DNA of 64,000 nucleotides from the NCBI RefSeq assembly GCF_000153185.1, contig NZ_CH724151.1:263154-327153 (forward strand), given 5' to 3'. Position 1 is the stretch's first letter. Every line of letters begins with the position of its first letter. The stretch comes from Reinekea blandensis MED297 (GTDB taxonomy: Bacteria > Pseudomonadota > Gammaproteobacteria > Pseudomonadales > Natronospirillaceae). Positions 53,007 through 60,654 of this stretch are shown here, piece by piece. Below the pieces are notes generated by a model that saw only the letters and a program-made list of their open reading frames with translations, was not told the DNA's origin and did no database searches. A program made the translations under genes and the position numbers.

Positions 53007-53022
53007 TGGCATCATTAGTGCA
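53007..53022 (+). promoter_or_regulatory. sigma-54-like promoter of the PEP-CTERM gene
   Basis: TGGCATCATTAGTGCA has GG at -24, GC at -12 and a seven-base gap between TGGC and GTGC (consensus TTGC, one mismatch). It is 50 bases upstream of the ATG at 53072. The second PEP-CTERM gene has the same arrangement. Confidence 0.55.
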
Positions 53023-53071
53023 ATGCAAGGATGACAACACACCCAAACTCAACATAAAAAGGATTGAAGTG

Positions 53072-53743
53072 ATGAGTTTCCGAATTTTTGCCTCCACCCT
53101 AATCGTCAGCCTTTGCGCCGGTGCACAAGCGAACCTGTTAAACAATGGGTCTTTTGAGACTCCAGATATCGATGACATCAATAATAACGGAGGCTCCAGC
53201 TGGGAAGTCTTCACATCGATTGACGGCTGGACCACTGAAAGCGGTACCGGCATCGAAATTCAGAAAAGTGGCACAGTCGTCAATGCCTACGATGGTGATC
53301 AGTACGTCGAGCTGGATTCGCACGACTTCACCGGGGAATCCGGCTCTACCAACAGCTTTATGGTACAGCAGCTGTTAGGGCTGAACGCGGGTGGGCTCTA
53401 TGAACTGTCATTCTGGTACCAGCCACGAACAAACAATGAAGATGACAATGGTATCGATGTGTACTGGTCATCAACAACCAGTGAGTTTGGCGCCAGCGTG
53501 CTGACCGCCGACGGGCAAAGCGGCTCTTTTGGCGGCTGGACGAACTTCAGCACCACATTGGTAGCGACAGCACAGGAAATGTACCTTGGCTTCCAGGCTT
53601 TCGGCACCGAAAACACCTTAGGCGGTTTTCTCGATGACGTCACCCTGACCGCTGTTGAGGTTCCCGAACCTGCCACACTGGGCCTTCTGGCTCTGGGTAT
53701 TTTCGGTATCGGCGCCTCTCGCCGATACGTCAAGCGAGCCTGA
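53072..53743 (+). CDS. PEP-CTERM sorting domain protein
   Basis: Exported protein of 223 residues from the ATG at 53072, with AAGGA about eight bases before it. A signal peptide (about 1-20, STLIVSLCAGAQA) leads to a beta-sandwich-like body NLLNNGSFETPDID...YVELDSHDF...GLYELSFWYQPR...FLDDVTLT, the pattern of carbohydrate-binding or DUF642-like surface domains. The C-terminus is VPEPATLGLLALGIFGIGASRRYVKRA: a PEP motif, a hydrophobic helix and an Arg-rich tail. That signal is cut by exosortase (EpsH/XrtA) in bacteria that make exopolysaccharide. The exosortase gene is not in the window. A sigma-54-like promoter lies upstream. Confidence 0.92.
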   Translation: MSFRIFASTLIVSLCAGAQANLLNNGSFETPDIDDINNNGGSSWEVFTSIDGWTTESGTGIEIQKSGTVVNAYDGDQYVELDSHDFTGESGSTNSFMVQQLLGLNAGGLYELSFWYQPRTNNEDDNGIDVYWSSTTSEFGASVLTADGQSGSFGGWTNFSTTLVATAQEMYLGFQAFGTENTLGGFLDDVTLTAVEVPEPATLGLLALGIFGIGASRRYVKRA

Positions 53744-53810
53744 ACACCTCGATTTCTTATAACCCGCTTTGCGGGCTGCGGGCTCAGTTTGTCGATAAAC
53801 CCCGCCGACA

Positions 53811-53920
53811 AAAAGGTAGCTTTCAAATGGATCGCTGCAAGTATCCCCGGAATGCCGGACCACCTGATACGCTCGACGAAAACTTCCATGTTTTCGGCGA
53901 CCATTTGAAAGCTACCTTTT
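53811..53920. repeat. 110-base inverted-repeat element with three-way-junction fold
   Basis: A perfect 20-base inverted repeat (53811-53830 with 53901-53920) is extended by TCGC/GCGA (53832-53835 with 53897-53900) across a single bulged base. Inside lie two hairpins: GTATC...GATAC (53841-53870) with inner CCGG-AATG-CCGG, and CGAAAAC-TTCCAT-GTTTTCG (53877-53896). It is either a structured RNA or a DNA element. A terminator hairpin lies on each side. No copy elsewhere in the window was noticed. Confidence 0.75.
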
Positions 53921-53960
53921 CATCGTCTTGAAACAGGTGGTGACTTTTTCATCAGTCTGA

Positions 53961-54175: not shown

Positions 54176-54499
54176 TCAGGCCAGCAATGATTGCAGAGCC
54201 TGTTCGGTATCGGCGGCTTGTTCACCCATCAACAGATGGACAACCTGATCGCTGATTTTCATCACATGTGTTACACCCAGTGTTTTCAGTACCGTGTCAT
54301 CCAGCTGCGTTTCTTGGCGCAACTCGATGCGTAAACGGCTGGTTGCACAGGCAAGCACACCAATCACGTTGTCTTTACCGCCTAATTCCTGAAGCAGAGC
54401 CGAAGCTCGTTGTTGATGCTCAGGCGACGCGGCGGTCGGCTGAACAGAATCAGCCGGCTCCGCTGCGACACCACCTTCAGGAATTACATGGGCTTTTTT
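54176..54499 (-). CDS. second EIIB domain reached by -1 frameshift from ptsG
   Basis: From 54493 down to the TGA at 54176-54178 the -1 frame relative to ptsG is open. It encodes 105 residues: an Ala/Pro-rich linker ([26 protein letters not shown]) and then a PTS EIIB domain, [28 protein letters not shown]...[33 protein letters not shown]. The phosphoryl Cys is present, though the loop reads CATSRLR, one residue longer than the usual C-x-T-R-L-R. There is no credible independent start. Shifting at the A_AAA_AAG heptamer (54499-54493) would make a 583-residue IICBB protein. The alternatives are a decayed fusion or a base error in a homopolymer of six Ts. Confidence 0.75.
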
Positions 54500-55926
54500 A
54501 CCAGATAATCCGCCATCTGCGTGCGCAGAGTATCGGCTTCAGTACCAAAGATGGCCTGTACGCCCTGACCCATGGTCAGAACCGCCGTGGCACCAAACCC
54601 TTTAATCGCGTCTTTATCAACTTTGTTGACATCTTTCACTTCGATGCGCAAACGGGTGATGCAGTTATCCAGCGTAGCGATGTTTTCACCGCCACCAAAG
54701 GCTGCAACCAAACCACCGATACGACCACCATCAACCGGAGCGGCTGATTCACTTTCGCCTTCACCTAAAACGACCTCGTCTTCACGACCTGGCGTTTTCA
54801 GGTTCAGAGCCACAATGGTGAAACGGAATACCGCGTAATAAACACCGGCATACAGCAAACCCACAACTGGGAACAACAGGCCTTTTTCAGAGTTTGCAAA
54901 CAGCACGATGTAGTCAATCATACCGTGTGAGAACGACGTACCGTGAACCATGCCCAGTGAGTTGGTGATGATGAAAGCCAGACCTGCCAGCAGTGCGTGG
55001 ATCACATACAGAACCGGAGCAACAAACAGGAAGGCAAACTCGATAGGCTCGGTGATACCGGTCAGGAACGAAGTCAGAGCCGCAGAAATCATGATGCCAC
55101 CAACTTTGGCACGGTTTTCTGGTTTAGCAGTGTGCCAGATAGCAATGGCCGCCGCTGGCAGTCCGTACATCTTGAACAGGAACCCACCGGCCAGCTGACC
55201 AAAGCCATTACCGGCAACACGAGTGGCTTCATCCGCACTCATGTAGCAAGGAATAATACCTGTTAAGGCTTCACCCGCCGCATTGATACAGTTACCCGCT
55301 TCCATCTGGAAAGGGACGTTCCAGATATGGTGCAGACCAAATGGAATCAGCGCACGCTCAATCACACCGTAAATACCAAAAGCAACGGTTGGGTTCTGAA
55401 CGGCAGCCCAGTCAGAGAATGAGGCAATGGTGTTTCCGATCGGAGGCCAGACAACGGCCAGGATGGCACCCAGCACAATGGCACAGAAACCAGTGATAAT
55501 CGGTACCGACCGTTTACCGGCAAAGAAACCCAGATAGGCCGGTAACTGCAAGGAAAAGAACCGGGTAAACGCCCAGGCAGCGACACTACCGGCGAGAATA
55601 CCACCCAGTACACCAACGTTGGTTCCCGGCGCAATCACACCAATGGTTTTCACCATGATGAAATAGCCCACGGTTGCAGCCAGCGCTGATACGCCGTCGT
55701 TATTGGTGAAACCTAACGCCACACCAATCGCAAACAACAACGCCATATTACCGAACACCGCGCTACCCGCTTGTTCCATAATGTCTGACACAATGCCTGG
55801 CATCCACGCAAAATGCGCTGCACCGACACCGAGTAAAATCCCGGCAACAGGCAACACAGATACGGGTAGCATCAGGGCTTTACCGACTTTCTGTAGAGCT
55901 GCAAAACCTTGCTTCCCAACACTCAT
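54484..55926 (-). CDS. ptsG: glucose-specific PTS permease EIICB
   Basis: Inner-membrane permease that imports and phosphorylates glucose, 480 residues. It is very similar to E. coli PtsG throughout: [127 protein letters not shown] (EIIC sugar-binding loop) and [10 protein letters not shown] before the EIIB domain. The EIIB phosphorylation site is C422 in [13 protein letters not shown]. No ATP is used; phosphate comes from the EIIA-HPr-EI fusion 63 bases upstream. The last codons are GTA AAA AAG CCC ATG TAA, containing a frameshift heptamer. Confidence 0.96.
54493..54499 (-). promoter_or_regulatory. candidate programmed -1 ribosomal frameshift site A_AAA_AAG
   Basis: In the ptsG reading frame the codons are GTA AAA AAG, giving the heptamer A_AAA_AAG used by dnaX. 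The zero-frame stop is two codons later. A stem-loop CGGCTGA-TTCTGT-TCAGCCG, extended by GCGG/CCGC, begins about 30 bases downstream, and a weak GGCGGA Shine-Dalgarno-like stretch lies nine bases upstream. Confidence 0.6.
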
Positions 55927-55989: not shown

Positions 55990-58539
55990 CTACACCACGT
56001 ACTGATTCGTTGTTTCTAAGTAATCCCGGACCTCAGCGGCGGTAGAGAACTGCAGACTCTGCTCCGCCTGCTCTTTACACTTCTGACTGTTCAACGCTCG
56101 AATGCAGGCTTTCACATCCGGAATCGACGGCACGCTGGTAGACAGCTCTTTAATGCCAAGTCCGACCAACAGCGGAACGGCTAACAGATCACCGGCAATG
56201 CCGCCACAGACGCCCACCCATTTGCCGTGTCGTTCAGCCGCATCGACGGTCATTTTGATCAGGCGCAGAACACTGGGATGCAGAGCATCGGCCAGTACCG
56301 CCAGCTTGGGATGACCACGGTCCATCGCCAGGGCGTACTGAGTGAGGTCATTGGTTCCGACAGAGAAGAAATCGACTTCCGGCGCAAACACATCGGCCAT
56401 GACAGCGGCCGATGGCACTTCGATCATGATGCCCACAGGCACTTTGCGCGCGCCCAGTTTTTCCTGCTCTTCGGCCAGCACTTGTTTGGCCAGTCGAAGT
56501 TCTCGGATGTCCGCGATCATCGGGAACATGATATGAATGTTGCCGTACTCTGCGGCTCTGAGCAGTGCTCGCAACTGCTGTCGGAACATCGCTGGTTTAT
56601 CCAGACTGATGCGAACACCGCGCTCTCCTAGGAACGGGTTTTCTTCTTCCGGTAACGGCAGGTAGGACAAAGGCTTGTCGCCGCCGACATCGAGCGTTCG
56701 CACGATCAACGGTTGATCTTTGCCCAACGCTTCGGCGGCGGCACGATAGGTTTTGAACTGGTCTTCTTCAGAAGGAGCCGTTGTTCGGTTCAGAAACAAA
56801 AATTCAGAACGCAACAGACCAACGCCTTCGCCGCCATTTTCAGCCACCTTCATGGCATCTTTGACGCTACCGATGTTGGCCACGACTTCTACTTTTACCT
56901 TGTCTTGTGTGATTGCAGGCTGATCAACATTGGTTCGGTTCAGCGTGCGGATTTTTTCCTGCTGAATGATTTGCTGTTGAATGGTTTCAACTTCGGAATC
57001 TTCAGGATTAACCCGCATCTCACCCTGGTCCGCGTTAAGAATCACGCGAGTACCGTTAGCAATGTCCCGAGCCTGGTCGTCAATCCCGGCAATGGCAGGA
57101 ATGTTCATCGCGCGCGCCAGAATGGCGGAGTGCGAAGTCGCGCCGCCACCGGTGGTGACAAACCCGACCACCTTACGTTTGTCGAGGTTTGCCGTGTCCG
57201 ACGGTGTCAGGTCATCGGCGACCAGGACACAGTTTTCCGGGAGCTTACGCTCAGCCGATTCAACGCCCAGTAAGGCACGCAATACGCGATTACCGACGTC
57301 GCGCAGGTCAACCGCTCGTTCGGCTAATAAGGTGTTGTCCAGCGATTCCAGCTGCTCAACCTGGCTGGTTACGGACTTCTGCCAGGCCTGTGCTGCATTG
57401 TCACCTGAGTCAATCAAGGTGGTTGCATAGTCCAACAGTTCCGGATCACTCAGCAGTTCAATGTGTGCAGAAAAGATTTTTGCTTTGTCTTCATCTTCCG
57501 GATCGAGCTGAGTTTTCAAGGTTTCTAACTGGTCATCAGCGATGGCAATGGCGTCTGCCAGTAACGCTTTTTCAACCGCAGTCTCCTGACGATCAGTCGG
57601 TAATTCCAGGACTTCCTCCTGGATTTGATAGACCACACCAACAGCAAAGCCGGGTGAAGCAGAAACACCTTTCATCCAGTTCAGAGTGTTGCTTTTCGGA
57701 AACAACAAGGACGGTTCATCCGCAATAACGTCGGCCGGACCAGAAGGCTCGGCGATCTCTTCACCCAGGCCTGAGCGAATGGCGGCGACAAGATCACTCA
57801 ACGCGGCTTGCGCGTCCGGGCCATTTACGTGCACCTGAACAGTGTCACCGAACTTAGAGCCTAAGTTTAAAATGCTGGTCAGGCTTTTTGCACTGACGCG
57901 CTTGTCGCCAAGCGACAGCTCTACAGCCGATGCATATTCTTTGGCAATCTTTGCCAGCGCTGCGGCGGGACGGGCATGAAGTCCGGCCGGGTTTGGCAAT
58001 ACCAGAGCGTCACTGTCGACCCAATCACCCAAACTTATTTCAATGTCCGCGACCGGTTCGCCAAAGGCGATACTCAACAATGGATCCTTTGCAGCAACGG
58101 ATTCAACCGGAGTCACTTTGAACTGAGCATTCAGCGTGTCGGCATTCGTGATCACCACAACGGTCATCAATGACTTCGCCTTTTGCGCAATGAAATCGGC
58201 GTCGAACTCGATTAACGGTTGGCCACACTCGACGTTGTCACCGTCACTGATCAATGCTCGAAAGCCCTCGCCTTTAAGCAGTACGGTGTCGATCCCAATG
58301 TGCAACAACACTTCCAGTCCACTGTCAGAACGCAACGTCAAAGCATGAGAAGTGCCGGTTAACTGCACAATCTTTCCAGCAAACGGAGCCACCAAAACCT
58401 GTTCGATTGGATCAATGGCAACACCGTCACCAACCAGTTTTTCAGCGAAAACCGGATCCGGAACGTCCGTAATTGGAATGACTTGTCCGGCGACCGGCGC
58501 GACTAACGACATCGGTGTAAGAGAAGTTTGCGAAGACAT
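55990..58539 (-). CDS. EIIA(Glc)-HPr-EI fusion phosphotransferase
   Basis: Multiphosphoryl transfer protein of 849 residues supplying phosphate from PEP to PtsG. The EIIA(Glc)-type domain (about 10-150) has LEVLLHIGIDTV with phosphorylated H80. HPr (about 174-260) has LPNPAGLHARPAA with H188. Enzyme I (about 288-849) has TTGGGATSHSAILARAMNIPAI with H470, then GVGLLRSEFLFL, LGERGVRISLD and GIMIEVPSAAVMADVFAPEVDFFSVGTNDLTQY. All active histidines are present. Such fusions are known for fructose and N-acetylglucosamine systems; here the EIIA is of the glucose class and ptsG follows, so the pair forms a self-contained glucose PTS. Probably co-transcribed with ptsG. Confidence 0.94.
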   Translation of the reverse strand: MSSQTSLTPMSLVAPVAGQVIPITDVPDPVFAEKLVGDGVAIDPIEQVLVAPFAGKIVQLTGTSHALTLRSDSGLEVLLHIGIDTVLLKGEGFRALISDGDNVECGQPLIEFDADFIAQKAKSLMTVVVITNADTLNAQFKVTPVESVAAKDPLLSIAFGEPVADIEISLGDWVDSDALVLPNPAGLHARPAAALAKIAKEYASAVELSLGDKRVSAKSLTSILNLGSKFGDTVQVHVNGPDAQAALSDLVAAIRSGLGEEIAEPSGPADVIADEPSLLFPKSNTLNWMKGVSASPGFAVGVVYQIQEEVLELPTDRQETAVEKALLADAIAIADDQLETLKTQLDPEDEDKAKIFSAHIELLSDPELLDYATTLIDSGDNAAQAWQKSVTSQVEQLESLDNTLLAERAVDLRDVGNRVLRALLGVESAERKLPENCVLVADDLTPSDTANLDKRKVVGFVTTGGGATSHSAILARAMNIPAIAGIDDQARDIANGTRVILNADQGEMRVNPEDSEVETIQQQIIQQEKIRTLNRTNVDQPAITQDKVKVEVVANIGSVKDAMKVAENGGEGVGLLRSEFLFLNRTTAPSEEDQFKTYRAAAEALGKDQPLIVRTLDVGGDKPLSYLPLPEEENPFLGERGVRISLDKPAMFRQQLRALLRAAEYGNIHIMFPMIADIRELRLAKQVLAEEQEKLGARKVPVGIMIEVPSAAVMADVFAPEVDFFSVGTNDLTQYALAMDRGHPKLAVLADALHPSVLRLIKMTVDAAERHGKWVGVCGGIAGDLLAVPLLVGLGIKELSTSVPSIPDVKACIRALNSQKCKEQAEQSLQFSTAAEVRDYLETTNQYVV

Positions 58540-60019: not shown

Positions 60020-60060
60020 CAATTGGTTACTGTTCAGGCAGTATTTCTTTGGAGAGAGAA

Positions 60061-60654
60061 ATGAAAAAACTATTACTATCACTATCTATGTTGACCTTCG
60101 CCGGGGTCTCGCAGGCGGGGCTGATTGGGGAAATCGATTTTGCCACCATTGGCGGTCAGGATACGTTGTTAGCCACAACGGGACTGTCCCCCAGTAATCC
60201 AAGTATCGAGACTGATTGGGCAAACAGCATCATTCAAGATGACGACGTCACCTTTACTGTGAAAACAGATTACACCGATGAAGGTGATGGTGCATTTAAC
60301 TTTTATAGCGTCAGTGGTAGTGATGACCTCTTCGCATTTTCATTTGCATCAACCGAGCCCGGATATTTTCTGTTAAAGAATGGCAGTCAGGAGGTAAACT
60401 CCGCTCTTTACCAGAACAACACGAGTCTCGATTGGGGCGTTATCAGTTTCAGTCAGCTCTGGGCCGACGGATTTTTTAATGGAAACTACGATGAAGTCAA
60501 ACTCAACTGGTTCGACGTCGTGTCTGTCAGTCACCTTACAGAGTTCAATGGCGAAACTGTAACGATTCCAGAACCTGCGACCATCGGGTTATTTGGTTTA
60601 GGTTTATTCGGACTGGGGCTTGCGAGACGCAAACGCACTATTGCGGCGAACTAA
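60061..60654 (+). CDS. PEP-CTERM sorting domain protein
   Basis: Exported protein of 197 residues. The ATG at 60061 follows GGAGAGAGAA. Signal peptide MKKLLLSLSMLTFAGVSQA is followed by GLIGEIDFATIGG. The body is acidic and strand-rich without a family I know (DDVTFTVKTDYTDEGDGAFNFYSV, DLFAFSFASTEPGYFLLKNGS). The C-terminal sorting signal IPEPATIGLFGLGLFGLGLARRKRTIAAN has PEP, a Gly/Leu-rich helix and a basic end. Processing by an exosortase encoded elsewhere is expected. A sigma-54-like promoter and a CRP site upstream suggest regulated, probably biofilm-linked, expression. Confidence 0.92.
   Translation: MKKLLLSLSMLTFAGVSQAGLIGEIDFATIGGQDTLLATTGLSPSNPSIETDWANSIIQDDDVTFTVKTDYTDEGDGAFNFYSVSGSDDLFAFSFASTEPGYFLLKNGSQEVNSALYQNNTSLDWGVISFSQLWADGFFNGNYDEVKLNWFDVVSVSHLTEFNGETVTIPEPATIGLFGLGLFGLGLARRKRTIAAN

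Follow-up and report, generated by a model that had tools for sequence, protein, structure and literature searches.

A candidate programmed −1 frameshift at the end of ptsG in Reinekea blandensis that would append a second EIIB domain

To our knowledge, programmed frameshifting is accepted for only a few bacterial chromosomal genes other than prfB and dnaX, and we know of neither a second EIIB domain nor a frameshift in PtsG (EIICB-Glc) of E. coli. In gammaproteobacteria, dnaX is decoded with a programmed −1 frameshift. Transposase genes of the IS911/IS3 family use the −1 frame to make a longer product, and for IS911 a three-way junction has reportedly been described as the stimulator. The E. 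coli dnaX frameshift is cited in PMC3711429 and PMC4066793, and the terms 'ptsG', 'PTS' and 'phosphotransferase' are absent from the main texts of these two papers. Frameshifting in a chromosomal transporter gene has been described for copA of E. coli, in passages of PMC5009743 that mention neither 'ptsG' nor 'phosphotransferase'. In the open-access main texts, abstracts and passages searched, we found no report of frameshifting in ptsG. Here we describe a ptsG gene that appears to undergo a programmed −1 frameshift resembling those of dnaX and IS911 in its mechanism, in a gene where it was not expected.

The analysed stretch of DNA (the window) comprises 64 kb of the genome that we take to be that of Reinekea blandensis MED297 (G000); two genomes compared with it below are presumably those of Reinekea sp. 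G2M2-21 (G005) and R. marinisedimentorum DSM 15388 (G002). The ptsG gene lies at 54484–55926 on the minus strand, as do all features of the locus given below, downstream of a gene for an 849-aa EIIA-HPr-EI fusion on the same strand (55990–58539), which was identified with Pfam. The zero frame encodes a 480-aa EIICB-Glc ending in ...YLVKKPM*, with Pfam EIIC and EIIB domains and a score of 740 bits against NCBIfam PRK11089 (cut-off: 647 bits); by this family, the first 480 residues of the window protein are a standard PtsG like that of E. coli. The first EIIB domain contains the expected phosphoryl cysteine, Cys422, in the motif CITRLR (54661–54663). A second EIICB of the same family is encoded elsewhere in the genome (L039, G000 C1:252599-253972) by a 478-codon frame with 45% identity to the window PtsG.

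The 3′ end of ptsG reads CTG GTA AAA AAG CCC ATG TAA, which places the slippery heptamer A_AAA_AAG (54499–54493) in the zero-frame phase, with two sense codons between it and the stop codon TAA (54486–54484). No stop interrupts the −1 frame between 54538 and the one that ends at 54176, and its part past the slip (54493–54176, below called the tail) comprises 105 codons and a stop, encoding a linker and a second EIIB domain (54430–54176). The predicted products have 480 residues (zero frame) and 478 + 105 = 583 residues (via the slip). The earliest ATG, GTG or TTG of the −1 frame is a GTG at 54367 within the EIIB domain, so that this frame has no start of its own. A terminator-like hairpin with a T run follows downstream (54139–54110), which puts the tail on the same transcript as ptsG, as far as the sequence tells. 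These results confirm an earlier reading made from the sequence alone (the sequence-only reading) in the correct phase of the heptamer, the 105 open codons with products of 480 and 583 residues, the missing start of the EIIB frame, and the end of the extension ahead of the terminator. Among 42 largely non-overlapping open reading frames of at least 150 codons in the 64-kb window (19,750 codons), the in-phase pattern A_AAA_AAR occurs three times including the ptsG site, which is the sole A_AAA_AAG. At this rate, the chance of finding an in-phase A_AAA_AAR in the overlap of the two frames is about 0.3% for R. blandensis (18 codons) and 0.65% for Reinekea sp. G2M2-21 (43 codons).

On the evidence presented here, we consider it probable that ptsG is subject to programmed ribosomal slippage in the −1 direction. 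Most ribosomes would read through to the TAA and produce EIICB (480 aa), whereas some would pause at an RNA structure starting 6 nt downstream of the A_AAA_AAG site. Both Lys tRNAs would then re-pair one base back, and translation would continue for 105 codons to give EIICB with the second EIIB (583 aa). That slippage occurs, that it is ribosomal and that the ratio of short to long form is relevant is what we infer from the features of the locus, as is any efficiency of the slip. The gene shares with dnaX the in-phase A_AAA_AAG in a chromosomal cellular gene, but the dnaX frameshift shortens the protein, and that of E. coli copA gives a short product of 70 aa (PMC5009743), whereas the frameshift in ptsG would lengthen the product by a domain. 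In the longer −1 product and in the predicted three-way junction, ptsG resembles the IS911/IS3 transposases, yet those belong to mobile elements and ptsG encodes a housekeeping sugar transporter.

The dnaX genes offered a view of decoding in the same bacteria. An in-phase A_AAA_AAG was present in dnaX of R. blandensis, R. marinisedimentorum and two further genomes (G001 and G008), and CCC_AAA_G in that of Reinekea sp. G2M2-21. All five genes have a −1 stop within three codons of the heptamer (three codons on in R. blandensis, two codons later in Reinekea sp. G2M2-21, L173), and three of the five have one extra in-phase heptamer elsewhere; the R. blandensis dnaX also has an SD-like GGAG upstream. 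Like E. coli, these bacteria therefore seem to rely on −1 slippage in dnaX. A pattern search for tRNA-Lys, which could miss an unusual CUU tRNA, returned two genes each in R. blandensis and Reinekea sp. G2M2-21, all with the anticodon UUU. With IS911 or IS3 stimulators, the three heptamers that work most efficiently in E. coli include A_AA.A_AA.G (a passage of PMC4066793).

We then turned to relatives. In a survey of 96 genomes, 11 had a PtsG-like match and 11 a match to the tail; near relatives of the tail (49–55% identity) were found in four of the 96 genomes besides that of the window (G005, G002, G008 and G001). In Reinekea sp. G2M2-21, the junction reads TTG GAA AAA AAA ACG AGC TGA, with the zero-frame stop at the same codon position as in R. 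blandensis, the EIIB in the −1 frame, and an in-phase A_AAA_AAA inside a run of nine A, compared with six A and a G in R. blandensis. In the other three genomes (G002, G001 and G008), IICBB is encoded in a single frame, which spans 604, 621 and 633 codons, respectively, between its flanking stops. These proteins, like those of other genomes of the same order, have the domain order of the predicted long product and mostly the same type of second EIIB, but a single reading frame leaves no choice of forms. Since the continuous fusion is present in these three relatives, the fused protein appears to be functional and is probably ancestral. A slippery site at a broken frame, with the −1 frame under purifying selection, for which the sequence-only reading had proposed to look, was thus found in one other species. 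Relatives with the fusion in one continuous frame, which that reading had taken to speak against a frameshift, exist as well; they leave unexplained, however, why the break lies on an in-phase heptamer with a structure behind it in two species.

Further breaks were sought in larger sets. The order-level search gave a match in 39 of 390 genomes, with 13 tail matches in short frames, i.e. those of the two Reinekea species and 11 others. Ten of these others belong to no broken EIICB gene: in G155 and G328, a stand-alone EIIB with its own Met lies about 240 bp downstream of IICB; in G103, a 158-codon frame has a Met near its start; in G299, G262, G163, G224, G013 and one match of G361, small frames with their own Met overlap a frame without EIIC motifs or lie closely downstream of it; and in G169 an EIIB-like frame has its own Met. 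The eleventh, a second match of G361, begins near a contig end, where a break cannot be judged. The class-level search (threshold: 1e-8) gave matches in 6 of 369 genomes, besides the window with continuous frames only; one of these (G642) has a single EIIB. Apart from the undecidable match at the contig end, no third broken ptsG was found in the order-level and class-level sets (390 and 369 genomes, overlapping draws). Linker heptamers could be read by motif at 5 of 24 loci, showing A_AAA_AAA in R. marinisedimentorum, CCC_AAA_G in G090 and none in the other three. The R. marinisedimentorum site (L029/L129) is an in-phase A_AAA_AAA within a run of nine A in the linker between the two EIIBs of the continuous gene; slippage at this site would give a short form, the converse of what is predicted for ptsG of the window.

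The RNA behind the junction is predicted to fold into a three-way junction (54486–54383) in R. blandensis. Its outer helix consists of 12 perfect bp, UAAUUCCUGAAG pairing with CUUCAGGAAUUA (54486–54475 with 54394–54383), starts 6 nt after the heptamer and has the zero-frame stop TAA as its first three bases. It encloses a longer arm with a hairpin at 54456–54437 and a GAGC-UUCG-GCUC hairpin (54408–54397). The stem-loop that the sequence-only reading had placed about 30 bases downstream, a 7-bp stem (54456–54437), is the inner part of a larger and closer predicted structure. For the 116 nt after the heptamer, the predicted energy is −57 kcal/mol and none of 200 shuffles was as stable (z −5.18); for the first 70 nt, 1 of 200 was (z −3.29). 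Taken by themselves, the first 60 nt do not stand out (z −1.14, 23 of 200). The structure was rejected as a terminator, as it lacks a T run. In Reinekea sp. G2M2-21, a stem begins 4 nt after the heptamer, and another hairpin with perfect pairing follows it. Here z was −3.40 for 60 nt (0 of 200 shuffles as stable), −2.35 for 70 nt (3 of 200) and −2.03 for 116 nt (5 of 200). Among 1000 synonymous-codon shuffles, 23 and 7 (70 nt) and 7 and 1 (116 nt) were as stable in R. blandensis, 19 to 62 in Reinekea sp. G2M2-21, a moderate result, and 113 to 983 in the three relatives with a continuous frame. When 65-nt segments along the gene were compared, R. blandensis was most stable at +10 to +20 after the heptamer, and the most stable segments of Reinekea sp. 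G2M2-21 were elsewhere; at +0 the two species ranked 10 and 17 of 338 segments, and G002, G001 and G008 ranked 154, 329 and 187. Thus, no unusual structure was seen behind the junction of these three continuous-frame relatives. The structures of the two broken genes have no sequence in common, and covariation between them is uncountable.

Stimulators of the IS3 type are described by empirical rules (PMC4066793) as simple or branched hairpins of 17–140 nt that begin 4–10 nt after the motif with a G-C pair. The structure of Reinekea sp. G2M2-21 fits these rules; that of R. blandensis fits except that five A-U/U-A pairs precede its first G-C pair, which lies 11 nt downstream of the heptamer and thus just beyond the 4–10 nt rule read strictly. 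An SD-like GGCGG (54514–54510), sought by the rule given in PMC4066793, lies 11 nt upstream of the R. blandensis heptamer; it is weak evidence and counts for little, since it is missing in Reinekea sp. G2M2-21 and the same GGCGG is present in the unbroken gene of R. marinisedimentorum. The spacing of the structures also bears on the idea that RNA polymerase slips on the A run and produces mRNAs that read into the second EIIB. The nine A of Reinekea sp. G2M2-21 would suit this idea, as a passage of PMC3711429 links transcriptional slippage to A runs longer than 7, but R. blandensis has merely six A followed by G, and structures a few nucleotides downstream fit ribosomal stimulation. We therefore regard transcriptional slippage as very unlikely.

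A related question is whether an ordinary continuous IICBB was simply broken twice, recently and independently, by indels in its A runs, or only seems broken through sequencing errors, so that the tail looks conserved because it was fused until lately. The relatives with a continuous frame agree with this explanation, and A runs, such as the nine A of Reinekea sp. G2M2-21, are hot spots for indels; however, the run of R. blandensis has only six A. Moreover, two events would have had to hit the same codon, and each would have had to give the −1 register and to leave a slippery heptamer in phase; the unusual structure behind both broken junctions, which the three continuous ones lack, would remain unexplained. 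Phylogeny gave two answers. In a joined tree of IICB, EIIA-HPr-EI and dnaX, R. blandensis grouped with Reinekea sp. G2M2-21 (100/100), and the grouping of G005 with G002 and G001 was rejected (p-AU 0.0006); a single break is then sufficient. The tree of IICB alone had the same unrooted split, but its root was on R. blandensis, outside G005, G002 and G001 (98/98), so that the two broken species do not form a clade and two breaks, or one break plus a later repair, are needed. Taken together, we consider independent indels or errors unlikely and prefer programmed slippage.

The tails of the two broken genes share 61% of their amino acids over 84 codons (IICB: 79%) and differ at the three codon positions by 0.30, 0.23 and 0.55, corresponding to pN 0.258, pS 0.65 and a dN/dS of about 0.21. 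In neutral simulations with 0.25, 0.5 and 0.75 changes per site and lineage, both frames stayed open in 118 of 9000 runs, and 60% identity was reached in none of the 9000. The −1 frame is, judged by these substitution patterns, under purifying selection. The lower identity of the tail than of IICB is what would be expected if the tail were a decaying remnant and EIICB alone mattered. Nevertheless, the tail is open in both species, where the sequence-only reading had named decay of the downstream EIIB as an argument against itself, and its domain core is conserved. Between R. marinisedimentorum and G001, whose genes are continuous, the tail likewise changes more quickly than IICB (dN 0.255 versus 0.093), which shows that there is no special decay in the broken pair; decay is thus extremely improbable.

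The tail was identified as an EIIB domain by Pfam (PTS_EIIB, PF00367: 32.4 bits, cut-off 27), while its score against NCBIfam EIIB_glc (TIGR00826) was 37.1 bits, below the cut-off of 45.75. It matches E. coli IIB-Glc by sequence (four distinct PDB sequences), and its predicted fold superimposes on 1o2f with a TM score of 0.80 and an rmsd of 1.5 (TM 0.77–0.81 for 1o2f, 3bp3 and 3bp8). The model used rested on 33 rows, of which 30 have canonical loops (pLDDT 90.8); a poor model from 3 rows (pLDDT 60) was set aside. The canonical EIIB motif in this set is N-x6-C-x-T-R-[LI]-R, and the active loop C-x-T-R-[LI]-R is not found in the tail, where this loop and that of its relatives is one residue longer, C-A-T-S-R-L-R (Cys at 54349–54347). 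Such a long loop was present in 24 of 54 EIIB domains (28 loci). The cysteine is at the usual distance from the Asn in 9 of these 24, including the tails of G000, G005, G002, G001 and G008, and the phosphoryl Cys is missing in the other 15, which have Val (14) or Phe (1) in its place; one of them has an adjacent Cys. Val or Phe instead of Cys together with the longer loop occurs in the second EIIBs of continuous EIICBB proteins at L134, L136, L138, L139, L141, L144-L147, L149-L151, L158, L009 and L010. The 24 long-loop domains fell on one side of a branch of the EIIB tree (94/88, not starred). A single origin of the long loop would not be firm, because the extra column of the loop was kept in the alignment, the columns were few and several branches were long.

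The long-loop EIIB also occurs as a separate protein: in six genomes of the order-level search, stand-alone frames with their own Met follow or overlap a PTS-like frame (L163, L164, L165, L189, L166 and L161), and the neighbour was a PTS enzyme I by Pfam in all three cases tested (G299, G013 and G361; L163, L166 and L161). Two of the small stand-alone proteins were scanned and scored 20.4 and 19.5 bits, under the Pfam EIIB cut-off of 27. The module is thus found, as far as its sequences tell, fused to the permease, free beside enzyme I or, in R. blandensis and Reinekea sp. G2M2-21, behind a frame break. The free-standing proteins behind enzyme I genes in G013, G361 and G299 raise the question of whether the tail, too, is a protein of its own, with ribosomes terminating and then starting again at an AUU that overlaps the zero-frame stop by one base in both broken genes (UAAUU in R. 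blandensis and UGAUU in Reinekea sp. G2M2-21). AUU is, however, a very poor start codon, and in neither genome does an ATG, GTG or TTG precede the core of the EIIB domain; the first one sits within the core. Reinitiation would also leave the heptamers unexplained, and near relatives make the fusion. We consider it very unlikely, a shade more so than slippage of the polymerase, and return to the fused product of −1 slippage.

The second EIIB domain with a phosphoryl cysteine, as described in the sequence-only reading, stands as far as the domain and the presence of the cysteine are concerned, but its phosphoryl function is doubtful in view of the longer active loop and of the loss of the Cys in 15 of 24 members of this class. 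A second phosphorylation site is therefore not likely to be the common role of the long-loop EIIB; the role may be regulatory, and modulation of phosphotransfer or binding of a partner seems more likely for this domain than the addition of a second ordinary phosphorylation site. The E. coli repressor Mlc is a binding partner of EIICB-Glc in its dephosphorylated state (a passage of PMC3901232), and a crystal structure of Mlc with EIIB is on record according to an entry title in the fold search, which makes binding of a partner a reasonable guess, by analogy, for the second EIIB. A more tentative and rather doubtful possibility is that the long-loop EIIB is a regulatory sensor or docking module of the energy-coupling proteins and that frameshifting determines what fraction of the glucose permeases carries it, perhaps depending on the growth state. 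If the ptsG frameshift is real, it would be a conserved case in which the mechanism supplies a metabolic transporter with an optional domain, and the relatives with the same fusion in a single frame provide a natural comparison of 'mixed' and 'all long' permeases. The case also draws attention to the divergent second EIIB, which is common in the EIICBB permeases examined and whose function, to judge from its sequence, is seemingly not plain phosphotransfer.

Two features were observed in the surroundings of the gene. Two open reading frames of the window (53018–53743 and 60049–60654) encode proteins with signal-like N-termini and C-terminal PEP-hydrophobic-Arg ends that appear PEP-CTERM-like by eye. 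Between the PEP-CTERM-like gene and the ptsG terminator lies a 25-nt inverted repeat (53806–53830 and 53901–53925), 92% complementary and with its arms 70 nt apart.
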